Origin: a virus | Length of the DNA stretch: 38,775 bases | Reading direction: 5' to 3' (one strand) | IMG/VR virus record: IMGVR_UViG_3300037486_000048 | Location: 1-38,775 of that record | Program-made: the position numbers and the translations under genes | The notes under the pieces: generated by a model | Seen by the model: only the letters and a program-made list of their open reading frames with translations | Database searches by the model: none | Told to the model about the DNA's origin: nothing | Part shown: one piece after another, positions 3,861 through 38,775 of the stretch | Position numbering within the stretch: position 1 is the first letter of the stretch | Layout of the letters: every line of letters starts with the position of its first letter

Positions 3861-4544
3861 CTACCTTGCACCGATTGACAGGACGTCCCTGCTCACGAAC
3901 TGCACGCCGGGGATCGCGATGGTCCCCTTCGTAGCTCGCGCCAGGGCGTCGGCTACCTTCTGATCCATCATCACCAGCGACGCGGCAGGGCTTGTCGGTC
4001 CATCCTTCGCGGCGGCGGCGATCAACTCCGTCTTGTTCGCCAGCACCGCCGACCACGCCTTGCGTGACGTGGCGGCTGCGTCGGCCGTCACGGAGATGAC
4101 AGGAGCCACGACGGACGCCGCAGCCTCCAGCCGCTCGGCCTTCAACTCTGGGGTCTTCAGCTTCTCGGCCTCCCGTTCTAGCCGCTCCCGTTCCTTCCGC
4201 GCCTGCTCGTCCGCGATTGCCTGCAACCGCTTCCGCTCTGCTTCCGCCTTCGCTCGTTCCTCGGCCTGCCAGATTGCTACGCGGTTCTTGACGATCCTCT
4301 CTGCCGAGTCGATCACTTCCGTTCCTGCCTTCCGCCGCTCATACGCGGCATCCATGGCAGTCCGCATCGGTCGCGTGATCGTGTCCCAGTAGTCCATCCA
4401 CTTCTTGCGCAGTCCCTTCGCCTGCGCGATCTTCTCGACCGCCACGTCAGCGTCGTCTTTCGTGACTATCGCCAGTCCCTTCGCCCAGGTCAGAAGCGTC
4501 CGCGATTCCTCCTGGATCACCTCAAGCTCAACCGACTCGCTCAC
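3861..4544 (-). CDS. Coiled-coil protein of the recombination cassette
   Basis: A 227-residue protein from a GTG at 4544 (V/MSESVELEVIQEESRTLL) that overlaps the nuclease stop as GTGA, with GGAGGG as ribosome site. Residues about 95-145 form a strongly charged helix (ERAKAEAERKRLQAIADEQA), a long coiled coil. An Ala-rich stretch and a small C-terminal domain (KATKGTIAIPGVQFVSRDVL region) follow. Similar coiled-coil proteins occur beside phage annealing proteins and RecB-like nucleases, where the role is unclear. I treat the function as unknown. Confidence 0.7.
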   Translation of the reverse strand: MSESVELEVIQEESRTLLTWAKGLAIVTKDDADVAVEKIAQAKGLRKKWMDYWDTITRPMRTAMDAAYERRKAGTEVIDSAERIVKNRVAIWQAEERAKAEAERKRLQAIADEQARKERERLEREAEKLKTPELKAERLEAAASVVAPVISVTADAAATSRKAWSAVLANKTELIAAAAKDGPTSPAASLVMMDQKVADALARATKGTIAIPGVQFVSRDVLSIGAR

Positions 4545-5125
4545 TTCCCGACCCTCCCTTGGTACAGGAACCCGTAGATGGATAGGCACGCCATGAACAG
4601 ACCGCGCGCCCTCCTGACGTCGTACTTCTCGATGGACCAAGACGTGCGGTTCAGGCGGATCGCTCCACACTCGCGTACCTTGATCCCAAGGTCGGTCTCG
4701 ATCAGCCAGGCGTATCCGCCAAGCTGTATCTCTGCCGCCGCGTGTACCGATCCAGTCTTCCAGTCCCACAGTCTGTGGTGAACGTCCAACGCGTCGAATC
4801 GTCCGGCATACATCCGAACGGGATCGCACACGAACGTCTCGGTCATCTTCGGAACTATCCCCAACGCCACCCTAGCTGCCTGAGCCTGCTCGACGTATCC
4901 CATGATCTCAGGATCGACGGTTGCCGGATCCAGGCATCCGGCCAGCAGGAGTTCTACCGCTTCGTGTACGGCCTTCCCCCTCTGCAAGTACCACTCGTCC
5001 ACCACGAACTTGATTGGCAGTACTGCACCAACGATGCCAGTTACGCTCGGAACCTTCCTGCCGTCGATGAAGTAGCTGTGAGTCTTGTCGTCGTACTCCA
5101 GCTTCACGTCGGGCTTCTTGATCAC
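4541..5125 (-). CDS. PD-(D/E)XK superfamily exonuclease (RecB/Cas4-like)
   Basis: A 194-residue protein with the full motif set of RecB-like PD-(D/E)XK nucleases: QRGKAVHEAVELLLAG around residues 48-63 (His54), Asp111 in YAGRFDAL, Asp121 and Lys123 in LWDWKTG, and the downstream QLGGYAW helix (Gln134, Tyr138). These residues bind a metal ion and cut DNA. With the annealing-type protein two genes downstream it probably processes double-strand ends for phage recombination. Its ATG overlaps the stop of the PadR-like gene (ATGA), so both are translated together. Confidence 0.85.
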   Translation of the reverse strand: MIKKPDVKLEYDDKTHSYFIDGRKVPSVTGIVGAVLPIKFVVDEWYLQRGKAVHEAVELLLAGCLDPATVDPEIMGYVEQAQAARVALGIVPKMTETFVCDPVRMYAGRFDALDVHHRLWDWKTGSVHAAAEIQLGGYAWLIETDLGIKVRECGAIRLNRTSWSIEKYDVRRARGLFMACLSIYGFLYQGRVGK

Positions 5126-9535: not shown

Positions 9536-9781
9536 CTACTCCTCCGCCAACGTACTTGGGGCGTCGTCGTCAACCGGCGTCCCCTCGCCGTTGTCCAGGC
9601 AGTCGGCCTTGTGGAATCCGTGACCTCCGCACTTGGGGCACTCGCAGTTGTGATCGACTCCGCAGACCGAGCAGCACAAGGTCTCGGGGTCGATGTGACC
9701 TTCGCAGTCCTCGTCACTAACGTGCACATCGAATGATCCGACCTTCGTCCCGCCGTAGGACATGCTCCACTTCTCACTCAT
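9536..9781 (-). CDS. Small Cys-rich protein with zinc-ribbon-like knuckles (81 aa)
   Basis: The ATG at 9781 (MSEKWSMSYGGTKVGSFDVH) follows GGAGG and overlaps the upstream stop as ATGA. Residues about 36-58 hold CCSVCGVDHNCECPKCGGHG and then HKADC, a run of Cys pairs typical of a zinc-ribbon or DnaJ-type knuckle. The C-terminus is acidic. It may be a small adaptor or nucleic-acid-binding protein. Confidence 0.65.
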   Translation of the reverse strand: MSEKWSMSYGGTKVGSFDVHVSDEDCEGHIDPETLCCSVCGVDHNCECPKCGGHGFHKADCLDNGEGTPVDDDAPSTLAEE

Positions 9782-10002
9782 GCCGTCGCCTCCTTCTGCT
9801 CGATCTTGTCGGTCTCGACCAGGGCAACGGTCTCGCCGCCCTTGCAGACGTGGATGCGGATTGCGCCCGTGGACCACCGCTGGATGAACACGCACCCGTC
9901 AGTACCCATCATGACGTCGACGCCTGCGCCGGGATCCAGCCTGACTTGCAGCACGCTGAATCCCTCGCCGTCCTCAGACTTCTCAACCTTGATCGTATTC
10001 AT
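9778..10002 (-). CDS. Small beta-rich protein (74 aa)
   Basis: The ATG at 10002 (MNTIKVEKSEDGEGFSVLQV) follows GGAGGG. Alternating strands (AGVDVMMGTDGCVFIQRW, AIRIHVCKGGETVALVET) suggest a compact all-beta fold. It is cotranslated with the zinc-ribbon-like gene (ATGA). The function is unknown. Confidence 0.65.
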   Translation of the reverse strand: MNTIKVEKSEDGEGFSVLQVRLDPGAGVDVMMGTDGCVFIQRWSTGAIRIHVCKGGETVALVETDKIEQKEATA

Positions 10003-10046
10003 CGTCTTGCCCTCCAGCACCAGCCCCGGCGTGATTGCCGAGGCAC

Positions 10047-10068
10047 GCGGGCGAGCCTCGCGGCCCGC
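10047..10068 (-). other. GC-rich inverted repeat in an 80-base spacer
   Basis: GCGGGC (10047-10052) pairs with GCCCGC (10063-10068) around a 10-base loop. The spacer 10003-10082 holds no gene. It resembles the hairpins in other early spacers and lacks a T-run. Confidence 0.4.
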
Positions 10069-10082
10069 CTGCGTACGTGCTA

Positions 10083-10337
10083 TCAACCCTGCCGCTCCTG
10101 CCGCATCACTTCATCGTCCACCTCGTTACACCACGCGTCGTACTGCTCGCGGGAAACTCTAAGTTCCGCGCACGTCTGGTCGATCTGCCTCTGCAACGTC
10201 TCATCCCTCGCCGCATCCGACCACTCGCCACCGTCGAACTCTCGGTCGGCCATCGCCGCTTCCTCGTTCGCTTCCTGCCAGTCGGCAACCAAGCGATCCA
10301 CTACCGCGCACCGTTCGGAAACGCTCGGCGTGTTCAT
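10083..10337 (-). CDS. Small acidic helical protein (84 aa)
   Basis: The protein starts MNTPSVSERCAVVDRLVADW after a GGAGG site. It is rich in Glu/Asp and helical (QEANEEAAMADREFDGGEW, ELRVSREQYDAWCNEVDDEV). The C-terminal YDAWCNEVDDEV resembles the WVQEQ segment of the next upstream small protein, so the two could be distant duplicates, a weak inference. The function is unknown. Confidence 0.6.
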   Translation of the reverse strand: MNTPSVSERCAVVDRLVADWQEANEEAAMADREFDGGEWSDAARDETLQRQIDQTCAELRVSREQYDAWCNEVDDEVMRQERQG

Positions 10338-10347
10338 CGCGTCCTCC

Positions 10348-10617
10348 TTACTCCTCAGAGTCGATCTGGCGATTCGCCAGAGCCATCTGCTCCTGCACCC
10401 ACTTGCCGTACTGGTCGATGCTCAGACCGTAGCGGACCAGCACCGACTTCGTCGCCTGCTCCTCGATGTCAGTGAAGTCGTCCTTGCTCTCGACTACGAT
10501 GCGCTGGCACATCGCCGAGAGTTCATACGCGATCTCCCGGTCTGCCCGATCGCACCGCGAGTCCAGATCCTCGGCCTCGATGACCTCGGTCTCCGTCAAC
10601 CGCTTCGCTTCCATCAT
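10348..10617 (-). CDS. Small acidic helical protein (89 aa)
   Basis: The protein starts MMEAKRLTETEVIEAEDLDS after GGAGGG; the second ATG is equally possible. It is helical and acidic (ADREIAYELSAMCQRIVVES, DDFTDIEEQATKSVLVRYG, IDQYGKWVQEQMALAN). No domain is recognised. Confidence 0.6.
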   Translation of the reverse strand: MMEAKRLTETEVIEAEDLDSRCDRADREIAYELSAMCQRIVVESKDDFTDIEEQATKSVLVRYGLSIDQYGKWVQEQMALANRQIDSEE

Positions 10618-10624
10618 GCCCTCC

Positions 10625-10876
10625 TTAGTCCCACCCGTAGCACCCGCAGTAGTACAGGTCCGTCTCCTTCTCGGGACGGTGCGCGAAGAACGCCAGCGTC
10701 ACCTTGCTGGGCACCTTCGTGTCACAGTACGTGCACTCCGCCATCCGACCAACGAGGTCGGGAGCGGCCACTTCGATCTCGGCGTCTGGCGTCATTCCGT
10801 AGTGGACTGCGCAGACCGGCTTACCGTTGCAGATTCCGTTCGCGGCGCAACCGCACTTCATCATCGTCGCACTCAT
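10625..10876 (-). CDS. Cys-rich putative zinc-binding protein (83 aa)
   Basis: The protein starts MSATMMKCGCAANGICNGKP and overlaps the upstream stop (ATGA). Two Cys clusters are visible: KCGCAANGICNGKPVCAVH at the N-terminus, and ECTYCDTKVPS with YYCGCYGWD at the C-terminus, enough ligands for two zinc sites. Such small proteins are common in phage early regions and often bind host proteins; the target is unknown. Confidence 0.65.
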   Translation of the reverse strand: MSATMMKCGCAANGICNGKPVCAVHYGMTPDAEIEVAAPDLVGRMAECTYCDTKVPSKVTLAFFAHRPEKETDLYYCGCYGWD

Positions 10877-11043
10877 GCGGCCACCTCCTTCTTGATCTGC
10901 TCACCCAACCATTCGGCATGACTTCGTAGCCACTTGGCCTCGGCAACCTTTCCGATCTTCTCGCGGTAGTCTGCGCTTCTAAGCGCCTTCTGAATGATCG
11001 CGGCATACGCCACGCGATCCTCCAACGTATGGCTCGTCGTCAT
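10873..11043 (-). CDS. Small helical protein (56 aa)
   Basis: The ATG at 11043 (MTTSHTLEDRVAYAAIIQKA) follows GAGGAGGG. The product is one or two amphipathic helices (SADYREKIGKVAEAKWLRSH, WLGEQIKKEVAA). An upstream in-frame ATG at 11157 would overlap the previous gene and a hairpin and lacks a ribosome site. The function is unknown. Confidence 0.6.
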   Translation of the reverse strand: MTTSHTLEDRVAYAAIIQKALRSADYREKIGKVAEAKWLRSHAEWLGEQIKKEVAA

Positions 11044-14603: not shown

Positions 14604-16610
14604 CTATGCCTGCGTTATGGACAGATCATCGACGTACACGGAGTAGGTCGTGCCCCCGTAGGCCCAGGCTTCGATCTGCACGACACCCGCCTCGGTCGGG
14701 GTGAAGCTGATTGAAAGCTGCTCCCAGGTGTCGGCATCGGCTGTCACGGAGTCCGTCACATCGGTCGCCACGCCGTCTATCTGCATACCTCGGCAGACCA
14801 GCTTGCCGGTGAGACCCGTGTTCGACCGCTGCATCCAGCAAGTCACGGTCACTTCGGCATCGGCGTTTACCGGGAAGGAGCCGAGAAGGAATGAGAACGG
14901 CGTCGCGGCCACACAATAAGTGCTGCTGGTCGGTTGAATCTTCCAAGAGATCCCGCTCGCGGTGTGCCGCACCGAGGTCTCGGAATGGACCTGACCATAC
15001 GCCGCGTAGATGTGATGGGTTCCAATGACCCCGGCCTCGTCCTGCGAGATGATGCGAGTTCTATTGTACCCCGGCCCGGCTCCGGCATCGAGCGTGACGA
15101 ACACTGCCTCGCTGATCGTGGAGTTGCGAAACATCTGGTTGCCGAGGCATGTACCGAAAAGGAACGCCGATGTACCACTGTTGTAAATAGTAACATCGTC
15201 GTACTCGTTCTGCCCACATCCCGTGCCAAAGGCCGCACCGTACAACGCGCTCGACTGCGCAGAGATATTCTTGTAGCGACTGTGCGTGGATCGCACCGCG
15301 ATGTTCGCCGATCCATTCCCGTCGCACTTGAGATCGGTGAAGGTGGACTCGCCGCAGAACGATGACCATATCCCATAGCTACGGTTGGCGCACAGCCACA
15401 GCGTGTCCAGCACTAGCCCGATATGAACGTATGTACCATATCCGATGATGATACCGGCATTCGAGTTGCCGTTCCCGTGGCACTCGTTTACCTCCGAGAA
15501 ATGACACGCGCTAGAAATGAAGATCCCATTTTGAAAGCGCACGCAGCCGATCTTCTCCAGGTGGATGAATCCGAGCATATGCCAGCGAATGCCAGCACCG
15601 TAACCATTCTGCCCGTCCAGCCACGTCTCTCCGTCCTGCGTGGACATATCCGTGCGGTTCCAGCCACCGGAGTAGAGAACCGGACTTGCAGATGTACCGG
15701 CCTCTTGGATGGTGCCCTTGTAGTTGTCGTCCGTAGCGGTTGGCATATCTAGCGGCTTGATCGTCTCGCGCTTGTAGGTCGTTACGGATTCGCTCGTGCC
15801 GACGTACTTGCCATAGACGTTATACGTCGCATCCGGTCCGCAGTCGAGCGTGACCGTAGTACCCAGGATGGTCTTGATCGTGTACCACGTTTCGCCCGCC
15901 GCGTTTTTCCCGATGAGGCTGGTCAAGGTGAGCGAGTCAGCCGCCGACGACACCTTGCACGCGATGATGTGGTCGAGGTGGAGCACGGCAGCGCCAGTAT
16001 CGGAAGCGCAGTAGAGAGCCACGCTGTTGATGTCGGTCGTCATGTCGGAGCCAACGGAGACGGATATGGGTATCCACCTACCAGAGCTTGCGGGTCCGAG
16101 CGCCGGGATGACGGCCGTGTAGACAGGCGTGTCTCCAGCCGTATCGCTACACAGCTTTAGTTCCAGTTGCCCCGCCGTGATCGTGCCCGTGACGCACTTG
16201 ATCCACATGGAGACCTGCTGGTAGCCATCCAATGTGAGCGTTCCGGTTGCGAAGTATGCGACCTTACCAGTTGTGAACGAGGCATCTATTGTGATGACCT
16301 CAGTAGCAGTTCCCTCCTTGCGCGTAGTGTTGGTGCCCCTGGAGTTTGGAGCTACCGCCGTCCATGCAGAATCGCAATCGCATATCTCGGCGGTGACGGC
16401 AGTAGTCAGTTCAATGGTGGAAGTGTTCGTTGTCCACGTTGCCGCCTGCCCGAGACTTGTAGGCGCCAGAGACCCCATGATGCGAACAGTGTCACCGGGC
16501 GCGACGCGCGCCGCCGTTATGCCACTCGTGATGGTCTTGACGCGGTTCGCGTAGGACGTTCCATCGTTCGCGTCGTTCCCGCCCTCAAAGTCAACATAGA
16601 GCGTTGGCAT
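14604..16610 (-). CDS. Beta-helix tail spike-like protein (668 aa)
   Basis: The N-terminus (MPTLYVDFEGGNDANDGTSY, then VKTITSGITAARVAPGDTVR) is the usual opening of pectate-lyase-type right-handed beta-helix proteins. The middle third has the coil-by-coil pattern (NECHGNGNSNAGIIIGYGTY, STFTDLKCDGNGSANIAVRS, NEYDDVTIYNSGTSAFLFGT). Two jelly-roll-like parts are plausible: at about residues 140-215 and at the C-terminus (SWKIQPTSS to YSVYVDDLSITQA), the latter like a carbohydrate-binding module. A receptor-binding or polysaccharide-degrading virion protein is likely. Catalytic residues are not identifiable by eye. Its ATG is four bases after... the upstream stop overlaps by one base (TAATG). Confidence 0.75.
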   Translation of the reverse strand: MPTLYVDFEGGNDANDGTSYANRVKTITSGITAARVAPGDTVRIMGSLAPTSLGQAATWTTNTSTIELTTAVTAEICDCDSAWTAVAPNSRGTNTTRKEGTATEVITIDASFTTGKVAYFATGTLTLDGYQQVSMWIKCVTGTITAGQLELKLCSDTAGDTPVYTAVIPALGPASSGRWIPISVSVGSDMTTDINSVALYCASDTGAAVLHLDHIIACKVSSAADSLTLTSLIGKNAAGETWYTIKTILGTTVTLDCGPDATYNVYGKYVGTSESVTTYKRETIKPLDMPTATDDNYKGTIQEAGTSASPVLYSGGWNRTDMSTQDGETWLDGQNGYGAGIRWHMLGFIHLEKIGCVRFQNGIFISSACHFSEVNECHGNGNSNAGIIIGYGTYVHIGLVLDTLWLCANRSYGIWSSFCGESTFTDLKCDGNGSANIAVRSTHSRYKNISAQSSALYGAAFGTGCGQNEYDDVTIYNSGTSAFLFGTCLGNQMFRNSTISEAVFVTLDAGAGPGYNRTRIISQDEAGVIGTHHIYAAYGQVHSETSVRHTASGISWKIQPTSSTYCVAATPFSFLLGSFPVNADAEVTVTCWMQRSNTGLTGKLVCRGMQIDGVATDVTDSVTADADTWEQLSISFTPTEAGVVQIEAWAYGGTTYSVYVDDLSITQA

Positions 16611-30810: not shown

Positions 30811-31233
30811 CTAGCCAGTGTTGGAGATGTCGATGACGCCGGACACCGTGATCTCAAAGTCCGACTTGATCGCCGTGTCCTTGTCGACCGCGAATCCCAG
30901 GCTGGTCACCAGTCCATCGAACTCGAAGGTCGTGTCCTGCGGATCCGGTACGACCACCTGATAACTCACCAGATCCTCGCTCTCGTAGTCGTCATTCAGA
31001 TCCTCGTACCCAGTGTAGGTGAAGTTCGCCGTGCAGCGGAACGTCCCGCCATTGCGGAATCCGGCGATGAACTCCTCGTACCCACCGTCCGAGTCGAGGT
31101 TGGTCACGTCAATGACCTTCCGCGTCTTGGTGTTCGTGATCGTCAGGATCTCGGCAATCGCCGTATAGGACAGCGGCGAACCGGCTCCACGCTTCAACTG
31201 AACACCAACACCACTCTGTGCATTACTCGCCAT
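30811..31233 (-). CDS. Major tail tube protein (140 aa)
   Basis: The sequence AIAEILTITNTKTRKVIDVT, NLDSDGGYEEFIAGFRNGGT, FRCTANFTYTGYEDLNDDY, YQVVVPDPQDTTFEFDGLVT and KSDFEITVSGVIDI is that of a lambda gpV-type tube subunit: a beta sandwich with a loop that polymerises. It is in the right place, between the tail terminator and the chaperones. It should be the most abundant tail protein. Confidence 0.85.
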   Translation of the reverse strand: MASNAQSGVGVQLKRGAGSPLSYTAIAEILTITNTKTRKVIDVTNLDSDGGYEEFIAGFRNGGTFRCTANFTYTGYEDLNDDYESEDLVSYQVVVPDPQDTTFEFDGLVTSLGFAVDKDTAIKSDFEITVSGVIDISNTG

Positions 31234-31246
31234 TCCGGTCTCCTCC

Positions 31247-31663
31247 CTAACTCGTCGTCGCCGTCCGATGGATTCGGAAGTTGATCGACACCTCCGGTCT
31301 TCCGTTCTCGTCCGGCCCTATGTCAAGGATTCCCCCGGCCTGCCAGATTCCGACGTACCTTGATCCCTCGATCTCCACCTCGTTCGGCCCGTGCGTGTCG
31401 CGCAGGAAGTCCGCGATGGCCTTCGCCCTCTGCCAGATGGTCGGATACGATCCGCGCATCCCGCGCACCCGCACCTGGACCGTCGGGTAGTCCGTCTCCA
31501 GGGAAGGCTCCGGTTCAGGATCGTTCCCTCCAGAGTCCATTACCGACACACATACATCGGGCTTCTCGGGCATGTCGAAGGCGAACAGGTCCGTCCCGAG
31601 CGTCAGCCCAAGCGCGCTGTCGCCGTCCAGCATGTCCGCTATGTCTTGCGCTGGACTCCTCAT
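31247..31663 (-). CDS. Tail terminator-like / minor capsid protein (138 aa)
   Basis: Features are a start helix (SPAQDIADMLDGDSALGLTL), strands with YPTVQVRVRGMRGSYPTIWQ, a helix RAKAIADFLRD, and a final RPEVSINFRIHRT strand. This layout matches phage tail terminators (gpU-like), which cap the finished tube. The ATG overlaps the HK97 gp10-like gene's stop (ATGA). Confidence 0.75.
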   Translation of the reverse strand: MRSPAQDIADMLDGDSALGLTLGTDLFAFDMPEKPDVCVSVMDSGGNDPEPEPSLETDYPTVQVRVRGMRGSYPTIWQRAKAIADFLRDTHGPNEVEIEGSRYVGIWQAGGILDIGPDENGRPEVSINFRIHRTATTS

Positions 31664-32148
31664 TTCACCTTGGCCTCCGCCCTGATGATCGCCAGAAGTT
31701 CGTGACGCGTTCGCTTCAGGGCTTCCTCAAGAAACTTCCATTGCGTCGGCGGCCTATGTCCCTGCTCTCCCGGTAGACGCTTGCCGATGGCGCGTTGTCG
31801 GTACATGCCAGACTTGGATCTCCTGGTTCCCCACTTCCGACTCGCCCACTTGCTCACCGGTATAACGATCTTCCACGTACGGACCTTCACCTCGTGGACG
31901 TAGATCGCGTAGTCAGACTCGTACCAGATCACTCCCCAGATGATACCCGCCGTGCTAAACACGCGCCGCCGCATGGACCTGCGGAGGTTCCCGGTGTCGA
32001 CGGGCGTCAGCGGAAGGGCGACCTGACTCACGCGCAGCAGGGCCTTCGACATTCCAGACCTCGACCGATTCTTGATCCCGGCGATCTCTCGGCTGAGGTT
32101 CGCCACGACCTCGCTCGATCCTGCTAGGTTCAAGATGCCTTCGGCCAT
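31660..32148 (-). CDS. HK97 gp10-like neck / tail completion protein (162 aa)
   Basis: LLRVSQVALPLTPVDTGNLR, then RSMRRRVF and WYESDYAIYVHEVKVR, are the signature of gp10/gpZ-like proteins, with the PVDTGNLR turn and the YAxYVHE strand. A basic insertion (SRKWGTRRSKSGMYRQRA) and a closing helix (WKFLEEALKRTRHELLAIIR) follow. It joins head and tail at the neck. Confidence 0.8.
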   Translation of the reverse strand: MAEGILNLAGSSEVVANLSREIAGIKNRSRSGMSKALLRVSQVALPLTPVDTGNLRRSMRRRVFSTAGIIWGVIWYESDYAIYVHEVKVRTWKIVIPVSKWASRKWGTRRSKSGMYRQRAIGKRLPGEQGHRPPTQWKFLEEALKRTRHELLAIIRAEAKVK

Positions 32149-32514
32149 CTACAACCACGCCTTCCGCATCGTCGTCTTGCCGTCAAGTGACGTGGACTTC
32201 GCCCACCCACGGATCTCCTTCGCTCCATCCAGCGCGAACGGGTTGGTCTTCTCTGCAGGTGATAGGTCCGCCAGCCTACCAAGGTAGACATACCCACCCA
32301 GCGACAGATCCTGATTGGGGTACAGAACAGCGGAGGAGATGGCTTGCCGTCCGGCGACGTCGACGAACTCGTTCTGCGAGTCCTCCCATCGGACCCGGAT
32401 CTCGACGGGATCGTCGAACGTGCGTCCGCCAAGTCCATCGGCCACCGGAGTTCCCCAGTAGACGATGACAGACTTGGCGAATCCGCCAGCAAAGACCTGT
32501 GACCGGAGCGTCAT
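32149..32514 (-). CDS. Head closure / stopper-like neck protein (121 aa)
   Basis: The protein is beta-rich: FAKSVIVYWGTPVADGLGGR, TFDDPVEIRVRWEDSQNEFV and LYPNQDLSLGGYVYLGRLAD. This is the pattern of small head-closure proteins between connector and gp10-like genes. The ATG overlaps the connector stop (ATGA). Assignment is mainly by position and strand pattern. Confidence 0.65.
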   Translation of the reverse strand: MTLRSQVFAGGFAKSVIVYWGTPVADGLGGRTFDDPVEIRVRWEDSQNEFVDVAGRQAISSAVLYPNQDLSLGGYVYLGRLADLSPAEKTNPFALDGAKEIRGWAKSTSLDGKTTMRKAWL

Positions 32515-32891
32515 GTCGCGTCTTCCGCCTCAGTGTACGGACCGAACGCCGCGATGTCCCCGGCCACGGAGCTAGTGGCAAGTTGGGCCACGACGCCAGA
32601 GATGTCAAGTTCCATCAGCGCGTGGCCGTACGGGTTCACCTTCATGTTGGCGTACGTCGCGCTGGCGTCGCCCACGTTCTCGGACGCTACCATCGGATCT
32701 CTGGCCGTAGTTAGGAGATAGGCCGTCCACAGCTTCTCGGCCACGACCAGCTCGTCATCCGACAGGCCGCTCGCTGACAGGAACCGGGTCGTCATCTTGT
32801 TCCCGATGTCGAGCCAGGGAGTGATCTGCTGCTCCGTCAACTGCGTCCCGGTCAATGCGATAACCGCAGCCGCCGTCGTCCTGTATGCCAT
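32511..32891 (-). CDS. Head-tail connector, gp6-like (126 aa)
   Basis: The protein starts MAYRTTAAAVIALTGTQLTE, continues QITPWLDIGNKMTTRFLSAS, then DDELVVAEKLWTAYLLTTAR and TYANMKVNPYGHALMELDIS. The helical layout, with an assigned-helix WLAA-like segment, is typical of gp6-like adaptors that sit under the portal. The ribosome site (GGAGG) and the first 137 bases lie inside the preceding glycosyltransferase frame. Confidence 0.75.
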   Translation of the reverse strand: MAYRTTAAAVIALTGTQLTEQQITPWLDIGNKMTTRFLSASGLSDDELVVAEKLWTAYLLTTARDPMVASENVGDASATYANMKVNPYGHALMELDISGVVAQLATSSVAGDIAAFGPYTEAEDAT

Positions 32892-33582
32892 CTTCCACCT
32901 CCGGTTCTATCGTTTCGTGATCCCACCTGCCGCCACGCCGACGCCTCTCTGCCTGCATCTCAACGAACGCTCCACGGTTTCCCCGCCCAAACCACTCCTC
33001 CCTCTGCCCGACGTGCCACAGGACGAGTGGAAGTTCACGCACTCGCTTCCAGCGCCGCATGAACCCGTTGTCATAGTTTCCAGCATGGGTCCATTGGGTT
33101 TCAATCAGCGGTTCGCCCACCAGGGCGGGATCTTGTGAATGGAACAGTTGGAAGAAGCCAACGCCAGGAACGTCATACCTCATCGGACGTAGCCCGGTCC
33201 TATCAACGTCCTTCGTAGACCTGCATTGCACGCGGCTGGCACCCCACAGGCATCCAGGCTTGGGTGACGCGTTTTCGACGACAGACTTCCACCCAACGGG
33301 AGGGACTACGTCGGCGTCGAAGAACAGCACCCAGTCGGTCCAGGGCACCAACTTGCGTCCCTCCTCTATCGCGCGCCCCTTGTTGAATGCAGCTCCATCC
33401 TCGTAGAAGGCCGTCGTCGCGTACAGGCGAGCCTTCTGGCGGACCGAGACCAGGGCAGCGGTGTCGCGATCTCCGGGTCTAGTAACGACGATCAGGCTAT
33501 CGAGGCCGTCGAGCCAACGGTCCACGCCTACTCCAAGCATGTCGGCGTAGTCCACGCACACCGTCAAGCCGTGGATCGTCAT
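32755..33582 (-). CDS. GT-A-fold glycosyltransferase-like protein (275 aa)
   Basis: GAAFNKGRAIEEGRKLVPWT is followed by WVLFFDADVVPPVGW, where Asp89-Ala-Asp91 is the DxD metal site of GT-A enzymes that use nucleotide sugars. The rest (GVGFFQLFHSQDPALVGEPL, YDNGFMRRWKRVRELPLVLW) fits GT2-type proteins. The last ~45 residues overlap the connector gene in another frame for 137 bases and look like read-through rather than domain. It is the last gene of the cassette. Confidence 0.75.
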   Translation of the reverse strand: MTIHGLTVCVDYADMLGVGVDRWLDGLDSLIVVTRPGDRDTAALVSVRQKARLYATTAFYEDGAAFNKGRAIEEGRKLVPWTDWVLFFDADVVPPVGWKSVVENASPKPGCLWGASRVQCRSTKDVDRTGLRPMRYDVPGVGFFQLFHSQDPALVGEPLIETQWTHAGNYDNGFMRRWKRVRELPLVLWHVGQREEWFGRGNRGAFVEMQAERRRRGGRWDHETIEPEVEDGIQDDGGCGYRIDRDAVDGAADHSLARHREQDDDPVPVSERPVG

Positions 33583-33584
33583 GG

Positions 33585-34352
33585 TCAGATCCTGCCGGTC
33601 GCCAGGAAGTCCATCGAGTCCATTTCCTCGACGCTCACGTTTCCATCAGAGTCGACCACTTCTACGGAATCCTCTCCGAAGTGACTCACTTGCCAGTTCC
33701 ACCCATGCGTTGCGGCCACGATAAGTCCATCAGACCGTCGCCTGAAGCTGGATACACCACCGGCCATCAAGTCCAGCGATTGCTTGCATCGGAGCGGAGT
33801 CTGGCAGGCTGTGATTGCCGGATCGTACTTGTAGATGTACAGGACCTTGTTGATGTGTGCCTCTGTCAGCGGTGCGTACGCCGCTGCGATAGTCTTATAC
33901 CAGAACACGTCTACGCCGTACCATGCCGGAAGCCACGGAACCGTCTTGGCCCAGTCCGCTCTCCACGCACAGAAGTGGTTGGCACACATGATCTCGCCGC
34001 CAGTCACCTTCACCCCATCCTCAACTCCGACGTGGAACGTCCACACCTTCTCGGCGTCGATCCTCTTGGCAGCGAACGTGGCCACGGAAGGCCCACTCTC
34101 CAGCAGTCTAAGGATAGATTCCACGTAGTCGGGGGCAATCACGTCGTCGTCGTCGACCGATGATATGTATTCCCCTCCCGCTAGACCCATCAACTTCGCC
34201 ATCTTCGTACCGTAAGGAACCGTTCCGTCATCCTCGTCTACGATATGTTCCACGGATCTTCCCCGAGACTGGCGCGCGATTTCTTGGAACAGTCCCGCGC
34301 GCATGGACGCTCGATTCTTCAGCGTCGGAGTGATTAGAGACAGCACCGGCAT
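33585..34352 (-). CDS. GT2-family glycosyltransferase (255 aa)
   Basis: The ATG at 34352 (MPVLSLITPTLKNRASMRAG) follows GGAGG and the upstream TAA by two bases. VLSLITPTLKNR is the first strand and loop of GT2 enzymes; GEYISSVDDDDVIAPDYVES around residues 60-80 carries the Asp cluster (Asp67-70) that binds the nucleotide sugar and metal. WYGVDVFWYKTIAAAY is the acceptor-side segment. A C-terminal extension (SVEVVDSDGNVSVEEMDSMD) is acidic. It probably transfers one sugar to a growing glycan. Confidence 0.8.
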   Translation of the reverse strand: MPVLSLITPTLKNRASMRAGLFQEIARQSRGRSVEHIVDEDDGTVPYGTKMAKLMGLAGGEYISSVDDDDVIAPDYVESILRLLESGPSVATFAAKRIDAEKVWTFHVGVEDGVKVTGGEIMCANHFCAWRADWAKTVPWLPAWYGVDVFWYKTIAAAYAPLTEAHINKVLYIYKYDPAITACQTPLRCKQSLDLMAGGVSSFRRRSDGLIVAATHGWNWQVSHFGEDSVEVVDSDGNVSVEEMDSMDFLATGRI

Positions 34353-34354
34353 AG

Positions 34355-35314
34355 TTACCAACCTCCCATGTACGCGTCCTCCACCTCGCAATTGAGCCTG
34401 TGACCCATCGCTCGGTAGTCGTACACTTCCAGGCATGATCTAGAGTACGCCATGACGTCCTCCTCATGCCATCCGTCGGCGATCTTCTTGGCCTCACGAA
34501 CGATGTCTTCCGCGCGCCAGTTCTGATCAAATCGACGTAGTGCACCGTCGATTGCCGGAAGGACATCCGCTTCTGGAAGGTTCGTGACTGGTATGCAGCC
34601 AACCGCCACCGATTCAACGATCTTGCGGAGTGCGAATCCGTATTTGCTCGCCGTCGCGATGTGCGCGCGATACTCCGCCAGCGCGCGCAGGTAGTCTTCC
34701 GTCCTGCAACCTCGGTTGCCATATCCGGGGTGACGAAGCACGTCGATTCCCAAGCGCGACGCTGCCTTGACTATGGCCGTACGCGCGGGATATATCTCCT
34801 CTCCGATGGCTCCAGATACTACGACTGACTTGCGATGGTCCGTAGCCGGGATAGCCCTAACCAAGTCCGCATCAACCGTGTGCCACGTCCTGATCTTCGG
34901 ATACGCACTCATCCACGGCGCACAAGCGTGAATCTGGTCTTCGTTGTAGTAGACGATTGCGATGTCTGCTGCTACCTCGCGCAGGAACGACTGGTGGTAT
35001 GCCTGGAACGTTGCAGCATCCTTCACGACTGCGAGCTTCAGGATGTTCTTTCGACGCGCCAGTTCCCCAAGATCCTTGAATCCAACGTCCTTGCGGAACG
35101 AGATGCGAGAACCCGGGTCCCAGTCGCGCTTGTCGTGGACAATCACGACGTCGGGACTATGCCGCTCCAGGAGTTCAGGAACGCTGTTGCATCCGTCACC
35201 GAATCCGACTCCAGCCACTGTCCATCCAGCGTGTTCCAGTCCTCGCTGAAGCTGATCTCCCTCGTCTGTCATGTGACGGCGGTAGTCCACGTTCCCTAGC
35301 ATCAGTCCACGCAT
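34355..35314 (-). CDS. GT-B / CgeB-like glycosyltransferase (319 aa)
   Basis: The ATG at 35314 (MRGLMLGNVDYRRHMTDEGD) follows TTTGAGGA. The N-half shows a Rossmann pattern (DVVIVHDKRDWDPGSRI, RKNILKLAVVKDAATFQAYH, ADIAIVYYNEDQIHACAPWM). The C-half has SVVVSGAIGEEIYPARTAIV, GIDVLRHPGYGNRGCRTEDY, LAEYRAHIATASKYGFALRK and VESVAVGCIPVTNL. The last stretch matches the donor-binding E-x7-E-type region of GT-B enzymes of the GT1/GT4 or spore CgeB kind. The transferred sugar is unknown. Confidence 0.7.
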   Translation of the reverse strand: MRGLMLGNVDYRRHMTDEGDQLQRGLEHAGWTVAGVGFGDGCNSVPELLERHSPDVVIVHDKRDWDPGSRISFRKDVGFKDLGELARRKNILKLAVVKDAATFQAYHQSFLREVAADIAIVYYNEDQIHACAPWMSAYPKIRTWHTVDADLVRAIPATDHRKSVVVSGAIGEEIYPARTAIVKAASRLGIDVLRHPGYGNRGCRTEDYLRALAEYRAHIATASKYGFALRKIVESVAVGCIPVTNLPEADVLPAIDGALRRFDQNWRAEDIVREAKKIADGWHEEDVMAYSRSCLEVYDYRAMGHRLNCEVEDAYMGGW

Positions 35315-35321
35315 GACGTCC

Positions 35322-36023
35322 TCAAACGTGTAGCACGCCAACGCCGCACGACGTGTTGCCCCACACTCTGTTCCACGCCTCATGAGACGTAGCTGCGGGG
35401 ATTCCAGCCCTCTCTCGCGCGCGAGCCTCTAGACCCTCGGACACATCCACGATGGACTCGCTATCATACCTAGCGGCGAGCGTGTTGAATACGGCACGCG
35501 GGTTGATCTTGTCCACCACGTCGTGAATGAACACCAATCCGCCCTTGCGCACGAACGGGGAGTAGATGGCGAAGTCCTTCCCGGTCGACGCCTTGTCGCC
35601 GTCAATGAACAGGCAGTCGATGGGATCTCCGGCCAGGAAGTTCTTCACGTCGGCGATGACTGAGCCGTCCATACTACTACCAGCGCGGCACATGATGGAC
35701 ACGTAGGGGAACGCTCCACGAAATGCCGAGGCGTACGGAACTCCGCGCAGTTCAATCGCTATGGCTTTGCGTACTGTCGGAAGGCACTTGATCCAATGGT
35801 AGAATCCACCACCCTTGTCGGCACCGATCTCCATGACGACCTTCGGCGCTAAGGCGCGTGCAGTCATCATCATCCGAGACAGTTCCGCCTTACGCTGCAA
35901 TGGGAACAGAACGGAGTCGTCGAATACCTCCGAGTACGCATTCTCTCCCCTGGGGCGATCACCTTCGGTTGCCAGCAATCTACCCCAATGTTCCATCAGG
36001 TTTGCCGGAAGCGGTGCATCCAT
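35322..36023 (-). CDS. Class I SAM-dependent methyltransferase (233 aa)
   Basis: KVVMEIGADKGGGFYHWIKC (about residues 60-79) is SAM-binding motif I. KAIAIELRG is motif II with the acidic residue, and PIDCLFIDGDKASTGKDFAI followed by GGLVFIHDVV matches the Methyltransf_24 type. Its position between the radical SAM and glycosyltransferase genes suggests methylation of a sugar hydroxyl. A nucleic-acid substrate is less likely, as there is no DNA-methylase motif such as DPPY or NPPF. Confidence 0.8.
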   Translation of the reverse strand: MDAPLPANLMEHWGRLLATEGDRPRGENAYSEVFDDSVLFPLQRKAELSRMMMTARALAPKVVMEIGADKGGGFYHWIKCLPTVRKAIAIELRGVPYASAFRGAFPYVSIMCRAGSSMDGSVIADVKNFLAGDPIDCLFIDGDKASTGKDFAIYSPFVRKGGLVFIHDVVDKINPRAVFNTLAARYDSESIVDVSEGLEARARERAGIPAATSHEAWNRVWGNTSCGVGVLHV

Positions 36024-36024
36024 G

Positions 36025-36891
36025 CTACGACCTCAACCTCATGTAGTCCGTCGACTCCTTCACCTTGGGACTGAGACCAGTGATTAGGTTGCACACCACA
36101 TCGTCGGGAACGAGCAGTTTCCACGATGCACTTACGTCATATACTCCGTCCCGGTCTAGGTGTCCTCGCATGCAGAACGGCACTCCACAGCCAGCATCGC
36201 AGCACGCATCTACCTGATGCTGGAAGGCGTCCATTCCATTCTTCCACCATCCAGGTTCTGCGGGGATTCCATTGTCTCCGCCCAGTAGGTCGTCGATTGC
36301 TGCTGCTACCTCGCAGAAGTACGCTCTCGGCCTTCCGTCGAACCCCTCGACTATTGCGGAGGACCACTTGCGGTTGATTGGACACTTCTCTCGGTACGCG
36401 ACCCACCTTTCCTCGTCGAGTCCAACGTCACGCCAGTCAACAAGGATTGGCGTGTGCCACGATGGGCCGTCCGCACTTCCGAGGATGACTTTCCCTGGCG
36501 TCCACCGTTCCATCGCATCGGATACTTCGCGATTCCCGTGCGCGTTTAGATTCATCCTTCCCGTGGGATAGAACGTGCGTCGCACCAGTTCGCCGTACTT
36601 GCCGAAGCTACTTGCCCATAGGCCACGCCGACTCTGCTGCGGAATCTCCTCGCTCATAATGCGGCACAGTTCCGAGAAGTCTGGATGTACGCACGGATTC
36701 CCACCGAACGCCGCAACGACTCCGGGCCAGTCTTTCGAGGCGTAGACTGCCTCTCGAAAGCACTCCACAGACATGTGTGATGGACGCGAACGAAGCTGAA
36801 GCAACTGCGTGCAGTTCGAACACGATCCCTCGCACGCATGAGTCACCACCACCTGGATCGTGTCATTCCGCTTCTGCGTGGGTGCCAGCAT
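36025..36891 (-). CDS. Radical SAM enzyme (288 aa)
   Basis: VVVTHACEGSCSNCTQLLQL holds Cys20, Cys24 and Cys27 in the CxxxCxxC motif that binds the 4Fe-4S cluster for radical SAM chemistry. AFGGNPCVHPDF (residues 62-73) is the GGE(x)P-type SAM-binding motif with Asn for Glu. Extra Cys late in the protein (EKCPINRK, AYFCEVAAAI, DACCDAGCGVPFCMRG) could hold a second, SPASM-like cluster. It lies between a glycosyltransferase and a methyltransferase, 1-5 bases from each, so a sugar-modifying step such as epimerisation, dehydration or methylation is a reasonable inference. Confidence 0.85.
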   Translation of the reverse strand: MLAPTQKRNDTIQVVVTHACEGSCSNCTQLLQLRSRPSHMSVECFREAVYASKDWPGVVAAFGGNPCVHPDFSELCRIMSEEIPQQSRRGLWASSFGKYGELVRRTFYPTGRMNLNAHGNREVSDAMERWTPGKVILGSADGPSWHTPILVDWRDVGLDEERWVAYREKCPINRKWSSAIVEGFDGRPRAYFCEVAAAIDDLLGGDNGIPAEPGWWKNGMDAFQHQVDACCDAGCGVPFCMRGHLDRDGVYDVSASWKLLVPDDVVCNLITGLSPKVKESTDYMRLRS

Positions 36892-36895
36892 CGGA

Positions 36896-37564
36896 TCACC
36901 GTCCTATCCACCTAGCCGATACGTCGCGCGGACGAGGATGTCCGTGGAAGCATACGACTACGGCGTCGTCTGGAGGCTGGCAGAGTTTCTTCGATCTGAT
37001 GTGGTACTTATAGCTATACACTCCGTCCTCGACGGTGAACCCGATACGGGCTTTCGCATGTCTCCACGTCCAGTCTCCGTCACCCGCATACGTCTGCCCG
37101 TTGCTCGGTTTCATTGGGATGCCGTGACGCCTGCTGTCAAACTTTGCCCCCGAGACGGCCTCGCAGAACGACCGGTACAGGTAGCGCATCTCACCTGCCC
37201 ATCCCAGGATTCCGCTCTCGCCGTGGTCCGGTCGATAGAAGTCGTGGAGCATGAGCAGGTCGCCACCAGCGTTCTTGGCCTTCATGCCAAGCGCATCGAT
37301 GTTTCCGACGATCACGGTATCCAGGTCGAAGTACAGGACGGGACCGAGAAGGCGGTACACCTCCATCTTCGCCCACCATCCAGGCCAGTCGTGATTCAGG
37401 ATGGCGAAGTTAGAAATGATGCTAGAAACACCTACTGGATCATCTGTCAGGCAGGTGAATAGGTGGGGTAGCGTTAGGTTACGCTCGACTCCGCGAGCAA
37501 GTCGGGCTACGTCATCCGGCACGAAGTCTCCTCCGCTGCGAAGCACGCAGGTGACTGTCAGCAT
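36896..37564 (-). CDS. GT8-like glycosyltransferase (222 aa)
   Basis: The ATG at 37564 (MLTVTCVLRSGGDFVPDDVA) overlaps the TylF-type gene's end by seven bases; an upstream in-frame ATG at 37627 lacks support. LPHLFTCLTDD, WPGWWAKMEVYRLLGPVLYF and DLDTVIVGNID are the usual GT8-like text, with Asp80-Leu-Asp82 as the metal-binding DxD. TYAGDGDWTWRHAKARIGF is the acceptor side, and CFHGHPRP near the end is the HxGxxKP-like motif. It probably uses a UDP-sugar. Confidence 0.8.
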   Translation of the reverse strand: MLTVTCVLRSGGDFVPDDVARLARGVERNLTLPHLFTCLTDDPVGVSSIISNFAILNHDWPGWWAKMEVYRLLGPVLYFDLDTVIVGNIDALGMKAKNAGGDLLMLHDFYRPDHGESGILGWAGEMRYLYRSFCEAVSGAKFDSRRHGIPMKPSNGQTYAGDGDWTWRHAKARIGFTVEDGVYSYKYHIRSKKLCQPPDDAVVVCFHGHPRPRDVSARWIGR

Positions 37565-38130
37565 CGCACCTTCCTCAGAACGAGTTGGTTGTTGTCCAGT
37601 CTGCCCACGGACGCGAGTCCGGGGCACGTTGCGATGAACTCGTTGACTGCATCGGAGGCTCCGCCGTGTCCCAGGTCGAATACGTCGTCACAGACGATTA
37701 GGCCTTCCGGCACGGTTCTCTGGTAGCAGAACTCTAGGGCATCGATGGTCGGATCGTAGTGGTCTAGGTCCACGTACGAGAACACCAGGAGCAGGGTGGT
37801 CGCATCGGACAGAGACTCGGGGATGAATCCGGGCCAGAGTTTGTACGAGTCGTGCTTCAGGCGAGCAGTCATCAGGTCCCTGAATCTGTCCACTCCGCCG
37901 ACGCTGAACTTTCCACGCCAGTATGCGGTGGAATCCCTTGGGCCAGGATCGGCCATGCCAATGAACGAGTCGAAGGCGTGTGCCATACGGCTGTGCGCGA
38001 AAGCCCAGTTGGCTAGTACGGCGAACGTGTCGCCACGGTAGACTCCGAACTCGGCCACGTCGCCAGCCAGATGCTCTATCCTCGACAGGAGTCGCATCAG
38101 CTTGCCGACGTCCATCCTACCAGTTCCCAT
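37558..38130 (-). CDS. TylF-type O-methyltransferase (190 aa)
   Basis: GDVAEFGVYRGDTFAVLANW (residues 23-42) is motif I of the TylF/MycF family. AHAFDSFIGMADPGP, FSYVDLDHYDPTIDALEFCY and GLIVCDDVFDLGHGGASDAV complete it; the Asp residues bind magnesium and the acceptor. Known members methylate hydroxyls of sugars such as javose or mycinose on macrolides. The length is shorter than TylF itself, lacking much of its N-terminus, as usual in phage and polysaccharide clusters. It is first in the cassette, right after the tRNA. Confidence 0.8.
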   Translation of the reverse strand: MGTGRMDVGKLMRLLSRIEHLAGDVAEFGVYRGDTFAVLANWAFAHSRMAHAFDSFIGMADPGPRDSTAYWRGKFSVGGVDRFRDLMTARLKHDSYKLWPGFIPESLSDATTLLLVFSYVDLDHYDPTIDALEFCYQRTVPEGLIVCDDVFDLGHGGASDAVNEFIATCPGLASVGRLDNNQLVLRKVRC

Positions 38131-38156
38131 GGACCCTCTGCCTCACGGCCCGTGCT

Positions 38157-38228
38157 TTGCGGGGGCGGGAGTCGAACCCGCCACCAGCGGATTATGGGTC
38201 CGCTGCTCTACCGCTGAGCTACCCCGCG
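38157..38228 (-). tRNA. tRNA with CAU anticodon (Met; initiator-like acceptor stem)
   Basis: The 72-base cloverleaf has D stem GCTC/GAGC, anticodon stem GCGGA/TCCGC, T stem GCGGG/CCCGC and T loop TTCGACT. The anticodon is CAT (38194-38196). The acceptor CGCGGGG/CCCCGCA has a C1.A72 mismatch, the hallmark of bacterial initiator tRNA, and equals that of E. coli tRNA-fMet. Against initiator identity, the D stem has C11-G24 and the anticodon stem has only two of the three G-C pairs (A31-U39). Position 33 is C rather than U. CCA is not encoded. Ile2 (modified C34) is a further possibility. Confidence 0.9.
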
Positions 38229-38308
38229 ATGCCGGACCGGGCGCAGCGTGCGAACGGACGGACGCGCACGACTCATCCATTCCAAGATCCGCGCCCGATC
38301 CTCTACCT

Positions 38309-38528: not shown

Positions 38529-38775
38529 TCACACCCCCTTTGACATCACGTCTGCCGGATCTACGATGGGCCAGACGGTGATCGCAGACCCAGGAGTAGC
38601 GTTGATGATCTCCAGTCCAAGCTCCTTGGCCTCTACCGCGACCTGCTGCATCGGCAGAAGGTGCTTATCGTACTCGGTGGTCATTTCGTCGTGGTAGTCG
38701 TGCCAGTTGTTCTTCCCGTCGACCTTCCTCATGTCGAAGCCAAGCAGAACGATCCGCTTCACACCGAGTAGGTAG
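38529..38775 (-). CDS. C-terminal part of a Rossmann-like phage protein ('norphogenetic' type), runs off the right edge
   Basis: The frame is open to the window edge (YLLGVKRIVLLGFDMRKVDG), so this is the end of a longer gene; a GTG at 38762 is an unlikely start. VLLGFDMRKVDGKNNWHDYH followed by LGLEIINATPGSAITVWPIV resembles the C-terminal half of phage proteins annotated 'norphogenetic', whose fold is near MptE/DUF115 and Maf-type proteins. Some relatives of that fold act in glycan transfer, which would suit the adjacent cassette, but this is weak inference. Confidence 0.55.
   Translation of the reverse strand, partial: YLLGVKRIVLLGFDMRKVDGKNNWHDYHDEMTTEYDKHLLPMQQVAVEAKELGLEIINATPGSAITVWPIVDPADVMSKGV

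Follow-up and report, generated by a model that had tools for sequence, protein, structure and literature searches.

A glycan-enzyme cassette with a radical SAM member at the capsid-neck junction of uncultured phages, a candidate for virion glycosylation

Phage-encoded glycosylation of virions is a known kind of modification and has been documented chiefly in mycobacteriophages. Here we analyze a cassette of glycan enzyme genes in the IMG/VR virus record IMGVR_UViG_3300037486_000048 (38,775 bases, taken at full length and called the window below), which is most likely an incomplete siphovirus genome. The cassette comprises eight enzymes of families fitting for glycan building, and both their clustering and their place among head and tail genes are conserved. 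We consider it probable, at roughly two chances in three, that it is a late, cytosolic module that builds glycans and decorates the phage's own virion proteins with them.

In the cluster O (Corndog-type) mycobacteriophages, an O-methyltransferase and three tandem glycosyltransferase genes modify the capsid and the tail tube (PMC11600133, citing Freeman 2023; PMC12619734). The window resembles these phages in having an O-methyltransferase gene plus tandem glycosyltransferase genes, and because of this precedent an earlier sequence-only reading of the window overstated the case when it called such a phage cassette unusual. The two systems differ in that no radical S-adenosylmethionine (SAM) enzyme is mentioned for the mycobacteriophages, and in that the glycan of the window is a prediction from its genes.

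The jumbo phages RAS14 (Stenotrophomonas) and XacN1 (Xanthomonas) carry homologs of the first three cassette enzymes in the same order, with a fused TylF-GT8-like gene following a sialyltransferase-like gene. The RAS14 fusion is located near tail genes, two genes upstream of the tail sheath stabilizer, which is followed by the sheath; in XacN1, at least two glycoproteins have been detected by proteomics (PMC5852040). Unlike the window, both are myoviruses, the methyltransferase and glycosyltransferase are fused, the proteins are annotated as hypothetical, and the flanking genes show no radical SAM, GT4 or GT2-like member. A second sialyltransferase-like frame, apparently split over two frames, is located upstream of the fusion operon in RAS14 (locus L003, 7740-8322; L-numbers denote loci of relatives, the viral ones being mostly IMG/VR contigs and L317-L394 being contigs of bacterial genomes). 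Phage P1 holds two genes of cassette families close together, pmgO (sialyltransferase-like) and pmgQ (GT8-like; L010, 5144-7702); no gene annotated in the interval is of the TylF or radical SAM type, and the role of pmgO and pmgQ is recorded solely as a "putative morphogenetic function". In the chlorovirus PBCV-1, the glycosyltransferase and methyltransferase activities of A064R complete a methylated glycan on the major capsid protein (PMC7019647); this is a single three-domain protein of a eukaryotic virus without a radical SAM step, and serves as an analogy only.

The cassette and its flanks in the window are as follows, with the support for each assignment in parentheses.

38529..38774, minus strand: sialyltransferase-like gene (GT42/DUF115, MptE-like), C-terminal 81 amino acids (PHROG 4603)
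38156..38229, minus strand: tRNA-Met, anticodon CAT (ARAGORN)
37558..38130, minus strand: gene 1, TylF-type sugar O-methyltransferase (Pfam TylF)
36896..37564, minus strand: gene 2, GT8-like glycosyltransferase of the P1 PmgQ/HdmD family (PHROG 1962, invariant DxD)
36025..36891, minus strand: gene 3, radical SAM enzyme of the twitch dehydrogenase type, SpeY/BtrN-like (cysteines and structure model)
35322..36023, minus strand: gene 4, second methyltransferase, Methyltransf_24 (Pfam)
34355..35314, minus strand: gene 5, GT4-type GT-B glycosyltransferase (structure model)
33585..34352, minus strand: gene 6, GT2-family glycosyltransferase (PHROG 8858)
32755..33582, minus strand: gene 7, GT2-like glycosyltransferase (relatives, invariant D89 and D91)
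32511..32891, minus strand: head-tail connector gene, 3' of the cassette (homologs at the same place in relatives)
30811..32514, minus strand: joining protein, Neck1-type protein, tail terminator-type connector and major tail protein (PHROGs 5, 2595 and 158)

Seven of the enzyme genes are tightly packed on the minus strand at 32755-38130, with neighbors that overlap or lie at most 7 nucleotides apart; their number, their coordinates and their enzyme families agree with the sequence-only reading. The upstream limit set in that reading does not stand, since the sialyltransferase-like gene at 38529-38774 extends the cluster. This eighth gene is open-ended, with its 5' part beyond the contig edge, and probably encodes the first enzyme of the cassette. 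A small open reading frame (ORF) and the tRNA-Met gene sit between it and the TylF gene, which places the tRNA within the structural operon directly before TylF. The best matches of the tRNA are tRNA-Met genes of isolate phages, and it has no established membership in the glycan pathway. Apart from the tRNA, no DNA similarity of the cassette to isolate phages was present among the matches listed.

The position of the cassette was assessed in relatives retrieved with the neck gene alone, a set blind to glycan genes. Glycan-type genes were located directly upstream of the connector in 12 of 14 distinct relatives (L108 and L099 had none), some of the 12 being counted solely for a sulfotransferase-like gene with a weak Pfam match (19.1 bits, under the 22.8 cut-off). 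The gene order in relatives is protease-type gene, decoration protein, capsid, cassette and connector. Where capsid and connector share a contig, the gap between them is 4.1-8.0 kb with a cassette vs 0.3-1.2 kb without one, in a comparison that includes two weak neck matches (L107 and L132). In the isolate Rhizobium phage RHph_Y3_1, a tail-fiber relative, merely a small ORF separates the capsid and connector genes.

Cassette contents at this position vary. PHROGs place the decoration protein and capsid directly upstream of the cassette in both L012 and L105. L012 encodes sialyltransferase-like, GT8-like, NAD-epimerase and GT2 proteins with weak methyltransferase and sulfotransferase matches, and L105 encodes sialyltransferase-like and GT8-like proteins, a radical SAM enzyme 57% identical to that of the window, a GT2-like protein (50%) and another methyltransferase. 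This variation indicates that, in the clade of the window, glycan enzymes are exchanged at this locus. As a rule, the sulfotransferase-like gene comes last in the cassettes of this clade, namely in L012, L034, L072, L085, L093-L095, L097, L098, L102-L104, L106, L109, L119 and L126; neither the window nor L105 has a match to it.

That capsid genes adjoin this position was also part of the sequence-only reading. The window holds no match to phrog_771, the capsid family of the relatives, so the claim was tested in the relatives, where it is borne out; for the same reason, the portal and capsid genes of the window are presumably located past its right edge. On the other side of the cassette, continuing on the minus strand, come the connector, a second head-tail joining protein, a Neck1-type protein and a tail terminator-type connector, followed by the major tail protein, assembly chaperone, tape measure, minor tail protein and central fiber J, and the order of the neck and tail-tube genes is kept in relatives. 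The connector at 32511-32891 has no PHROG match of its own.

The gene set also recurs outside the clade. Radical SAM, GT4, GT2-like and GT8-like genes form a single run in L159, L162, L163 and L169; in L163 a sialyltransferase-like gene precedes the run, a Methyltransf_24 gene lies inside it, and the capsid and portal genes upstream belong to other PHROG families. In L166, radical SAM, GT4, Methyltransf_24, GT2-like and GT2 genes are located between head-tail adaptor and tail (tail tube) genes. Among 79 viral loci retrieved with the radical SAM family alone, a glycosyltransferase gene was present within 4 kb of the radical SAM gene in 61, any glycan gene in 68 and a terminase in 39. Since loci retrieved with the GT2-like protein cannot measure their own linkage, this linkage was re-measured in the radical-SAM-fetched loci, 16 of 79 of which contain the GT2-like gene vs 1 of 67 neck-fetched loci. 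The recurrence of the set in independently fetched loci led us to reject a chance gathering of genes as the origin of the cassette. Its treatment as one set is supported by families that recur together in other phages, by the TylF-GT8-like fusion in the two jumbo phages and by the conserved capsid-neck position. Gene order varies among relatives and genes are swapped, a pattern the sequence-only reading had listed as telling against a single pathway; clustering and location nevertheless hold.

The three leading enzymes have profile matches. The truncated gene matches PHROG 4603 ("alpha-2,3-sialyltransferase", E 8.9e-15), and the profile of its family, to which the window contributes 81 residues only, matches CstII sialyltransferases (E 8e-4) and MptE (E 1e-3). 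Its homologs precede the GT8-like gene in L012, L097, L092, L105, RAS14 and XacN1. Gene 1 scored 46.9 bits against Pfam TylF (cut-off 23 bits) and has profile matches to three sugar O-methyltransferases, CalS11, mycinamicin III 3''-O-methyltransferase and NovP. Gene 2 belongs to PHROG 1962 (E 8.5e-30), the family of P1 PmgQ/HdmD, with an invariant DxD (D80, D82) in the alignment and profile matches to Skp1 galactosyltransferase (E 1.9e-8) and glycogenin (E about 1e-3 to 1e-4), both of which act on protein-linked sugars. TylF and GT8-like genes are also near each other in L015.

The radical SAM gene scored 18.0 bits against Pfam, under the 29.5 cut-off; because profiles recognize this protein and gene 5 poorly, both were settled by structure. 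Across 22 aligned members, the SAM-binding [4Fe-4S] motif CX3CX2C (C20, C24, C27) is invariant, as are C170, C193, C231 and C235, four later cysteines that could ligate one auxiliary cluster, and the alignment also has GG, NxNxH and FCE motifs. The structure model (predicted local distance difference test (pLDDT) 92.4, predicted template modeling score 0.90) matched SpeY (Foldseek E 7e-8, Z 17.2 over 251 residues) and next BtrN (Z 12.5), with identities of 11-14%; all further structural matches were at Z 10.3 or lower. SpeY, whose PDB title calls it a twitch radical SAM dehydrogenase, and BtrN are carbohydrate or cyclitol alcohol dehydrogenases, and enzymes of this type bear one extra iron-sulfur cluster. 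The phage protein thus shares their overall fold and combines the SAM-cluster motif with four further invariant cysteines; they differ in that SpeY and BtrN belong to antibiotic pathways whereas the phage enzyme is encoded inside glycan cassettes. From this fold, we infer that the phage enzyme may oxidize a sugar hydroxyl, and the suggestion in the sequence-only reading of a radical-modified sugar gains strength as a reasonable interpretation of the model. The nearest viral model (BFVD) is 14% identical, and no full-length relative was found among the isolate phages of the collection searched. Neither the radical SAM protein nor the tape measure protein, used as a single query, retrieved a match from viral contigs, for which alignment queries were needed.

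Gene 4 narrowly exceeds the Pfam cut-off for Methyltransf_24 (27.0 vs 26.3 bits), and genes of this family are found with the radical SAM gene in L163, L166 and L191. Gene 5 had no convincing family match in profile searches. Its model (pLDDT 90.7) has a GT-B fold and matches GT4-type enzymes (Foldseek E 5e-7, Z 17-19 over about 280 residues), with T4 alpha-glucosyltransferase among the structural matches; judged by this model, gene 5 is a GT4-type GT-B glycosyltransferase, and its relatives adjoin the radical SAM gene in other loci. Gene 6 matches a PHROG 8858 glycosyltransferase (E 1.2e-20), scores 22.1 bits against Pfam Glycos_transf_2 (below the 23.3 cut-off) and has relatives in L173 and L175. 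Gene 7 has 82 relatives in viral contigs, including proteins of L105 (50% identity) and L068 (49%), and its D89 and D91 are invariant. Its ORF enters the connector gene by 137 nucleotides (last 50 codons) in another frame, its homology stops at about residue 225 of 275, and the proteins of relatives end near there; the tail (32755-32914) may belong to the protein naturally, or it may stem from a frameshift, either in the gene or in the assembly. The starts of the GT8-like, GT4 and GT2 genes are likely at 37564, 35314 and 34352, downstream of the longest-ORF starts.

Within the cassette, the minus strand has no promoter-like site, and terminator-like sites are no more frequent than expected by chance, a predicted pattern that fits one transcript including the neck genes. 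The left arm of the window contains ParB-like and exonuclease-like genes (911-1747 and 3861-4829), and no integrase was identified among the window genes tested. Two large ORFs, at 14604-16610 (668 amino acids, minus strand) and 9733-10929 (398 amino acids, plus strand), have no PHROG match at E 0.01.

We prefer decoration of the virion as the function of the cassette because of its fixed position among virion genes, the glycoproteins of XacN1 and the mycobacteriophage precedent. By this mechanism, the sialyltransferase-like, GT8-like, GT4 and two GT2-type enzymes would draw on host nucleotide sugars to begin and lengthen a short chain, attached to a protein of the capsid, neck or tail. The TylF and Methyltransf_24 enzymes would add methyl caps to hydroxyls, and the SpeY/BtrN-like enzyme would oxidize a single hydroxyl of a sugar, giving a ketone, or make a related radical change, with the order of action, the attachment site and the oxidized sugar all being conjectural. 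Gene swapping at the locus would permit quick change of the sugar surface of the virion. A broader version, in which a swappable and widespread capsid-neck locus gives environmental phages unusual coats that include a radical-SAM-made keto-sugar on the virion, is a tentative proposal to which we give well below even odds.

Several observations weigh against virion glycosylation. For this phage and its close relatives, a virion glycan is a prediction from gene content. CstII-type enzymes are familiar from cell-surface glycans. Bacterial homologs of the radical SAM enzyme, from diverse genomes, have a glycosyltransferase gene within 4 kb in 34 of 78 contigs (L317-L394), and the enzyme set is thus not specific to virions; in at least one of these contigs, L317, a terminase adjoins the radical SAM gene, and the contig resembles a prophage or a phage. 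No mycobacteriophages were present among the tblastn matches (E 1e-3) of the TylF and GT8-like proteins, so that the cluster O precedent holds by analogy, and the authors of the XacN1 study credited its glycoproteins to two genes other than those of the fusion operon (PMC5852040).

The main rival, which we rate as unlikely, is that the cassette changes a host surface polysaccharide during infection, excluding rival phages or stopping released virions from binding to debris. The resemblance of the sialyltransferase-like family to CstII lipooligosaccharide enzymes and the bacterial radical SAM homologs near glycosyltransferase genes are consistent with this, and GT8-rich pelagimyophage clusters (PMC7029224) and cyanophage clusters (PMC7824862) were so interpreted by their authors. 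The cassette enzymes, however, have no membrane segments, the locus is within head and tail genes, where late expression is expected, in several lineages, and the RAS14 fusion is upstream of tail genes. The GtrA-type membrane protein (PF04138) is absent from the window and 15 relatives, whose records may be incomplete, and serotype conversion of the gtrABC type is disfavored on the same count.

It is very improbable that the enzymes instead hypermodify phage DNA, with glycosyltransferases and tailoring enzymes acting on a modified base before packaging. The GT4-fold phage enzymes do include T4 alpha-glucosyltransferase, one of the structural matches of gene 5, and a terminase is frequently near radical SAM loci; but a thymidylate-synthase-type hydroxymethylase (PF00303) is absent from the window and 15 relatives (several >50 kb; records may be incomplete), and the TylF and SpeY/BtrN relatives use free or glycosidic sugars. 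Less probable still is a diffusible, antibiotic-like glycosylated small molecule for competition between infected cells, as proposed in the form of secondary metabolites for a cyanophage cluster (PMC7824862) and in keeping with the antibiotic pathways of TylF, NovP, CalS11, SpeY and BtrN, because the cassette has no scaffold-making genes (polyketide, peptide or cyclitol) and is placed among virion genes, and because sister cassettes retain glycosyltransferases while tailoring enzymes vary.

Three features appear to be new: a radical SAM member resembling carbohydrate dehydrogenases, the repeated association of that member with GT4, Methyltransf_24 and GT2-like genes, and, across uncultured phages, a site of gene swapping between capsid and neck; among open-license papers, we found none that combine the three. 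We know of no described phage counterpart of a carbonyl-bearing methylated glycan, which, if it is made, could shield the particle or allow covalent binding to surfaces. If decoration of the virion is the correct reading, virion glycosylation would be a common trait among uncultured tailed phages, encoded at a defined swapping site that separates capsid genes from neck genes, and would gain a radical SAM sugar dehydrogenase, a class for which the open-license literature found holds no description in virion modification. Phage genes that have long lacked an explanation, e.g. P1 pmgO and pmgQ, would then receive a function open to testing, and glycan-coated virions could be recognized by a sequence marker, with bearing on adsorption, antibody recognition and particle stability.

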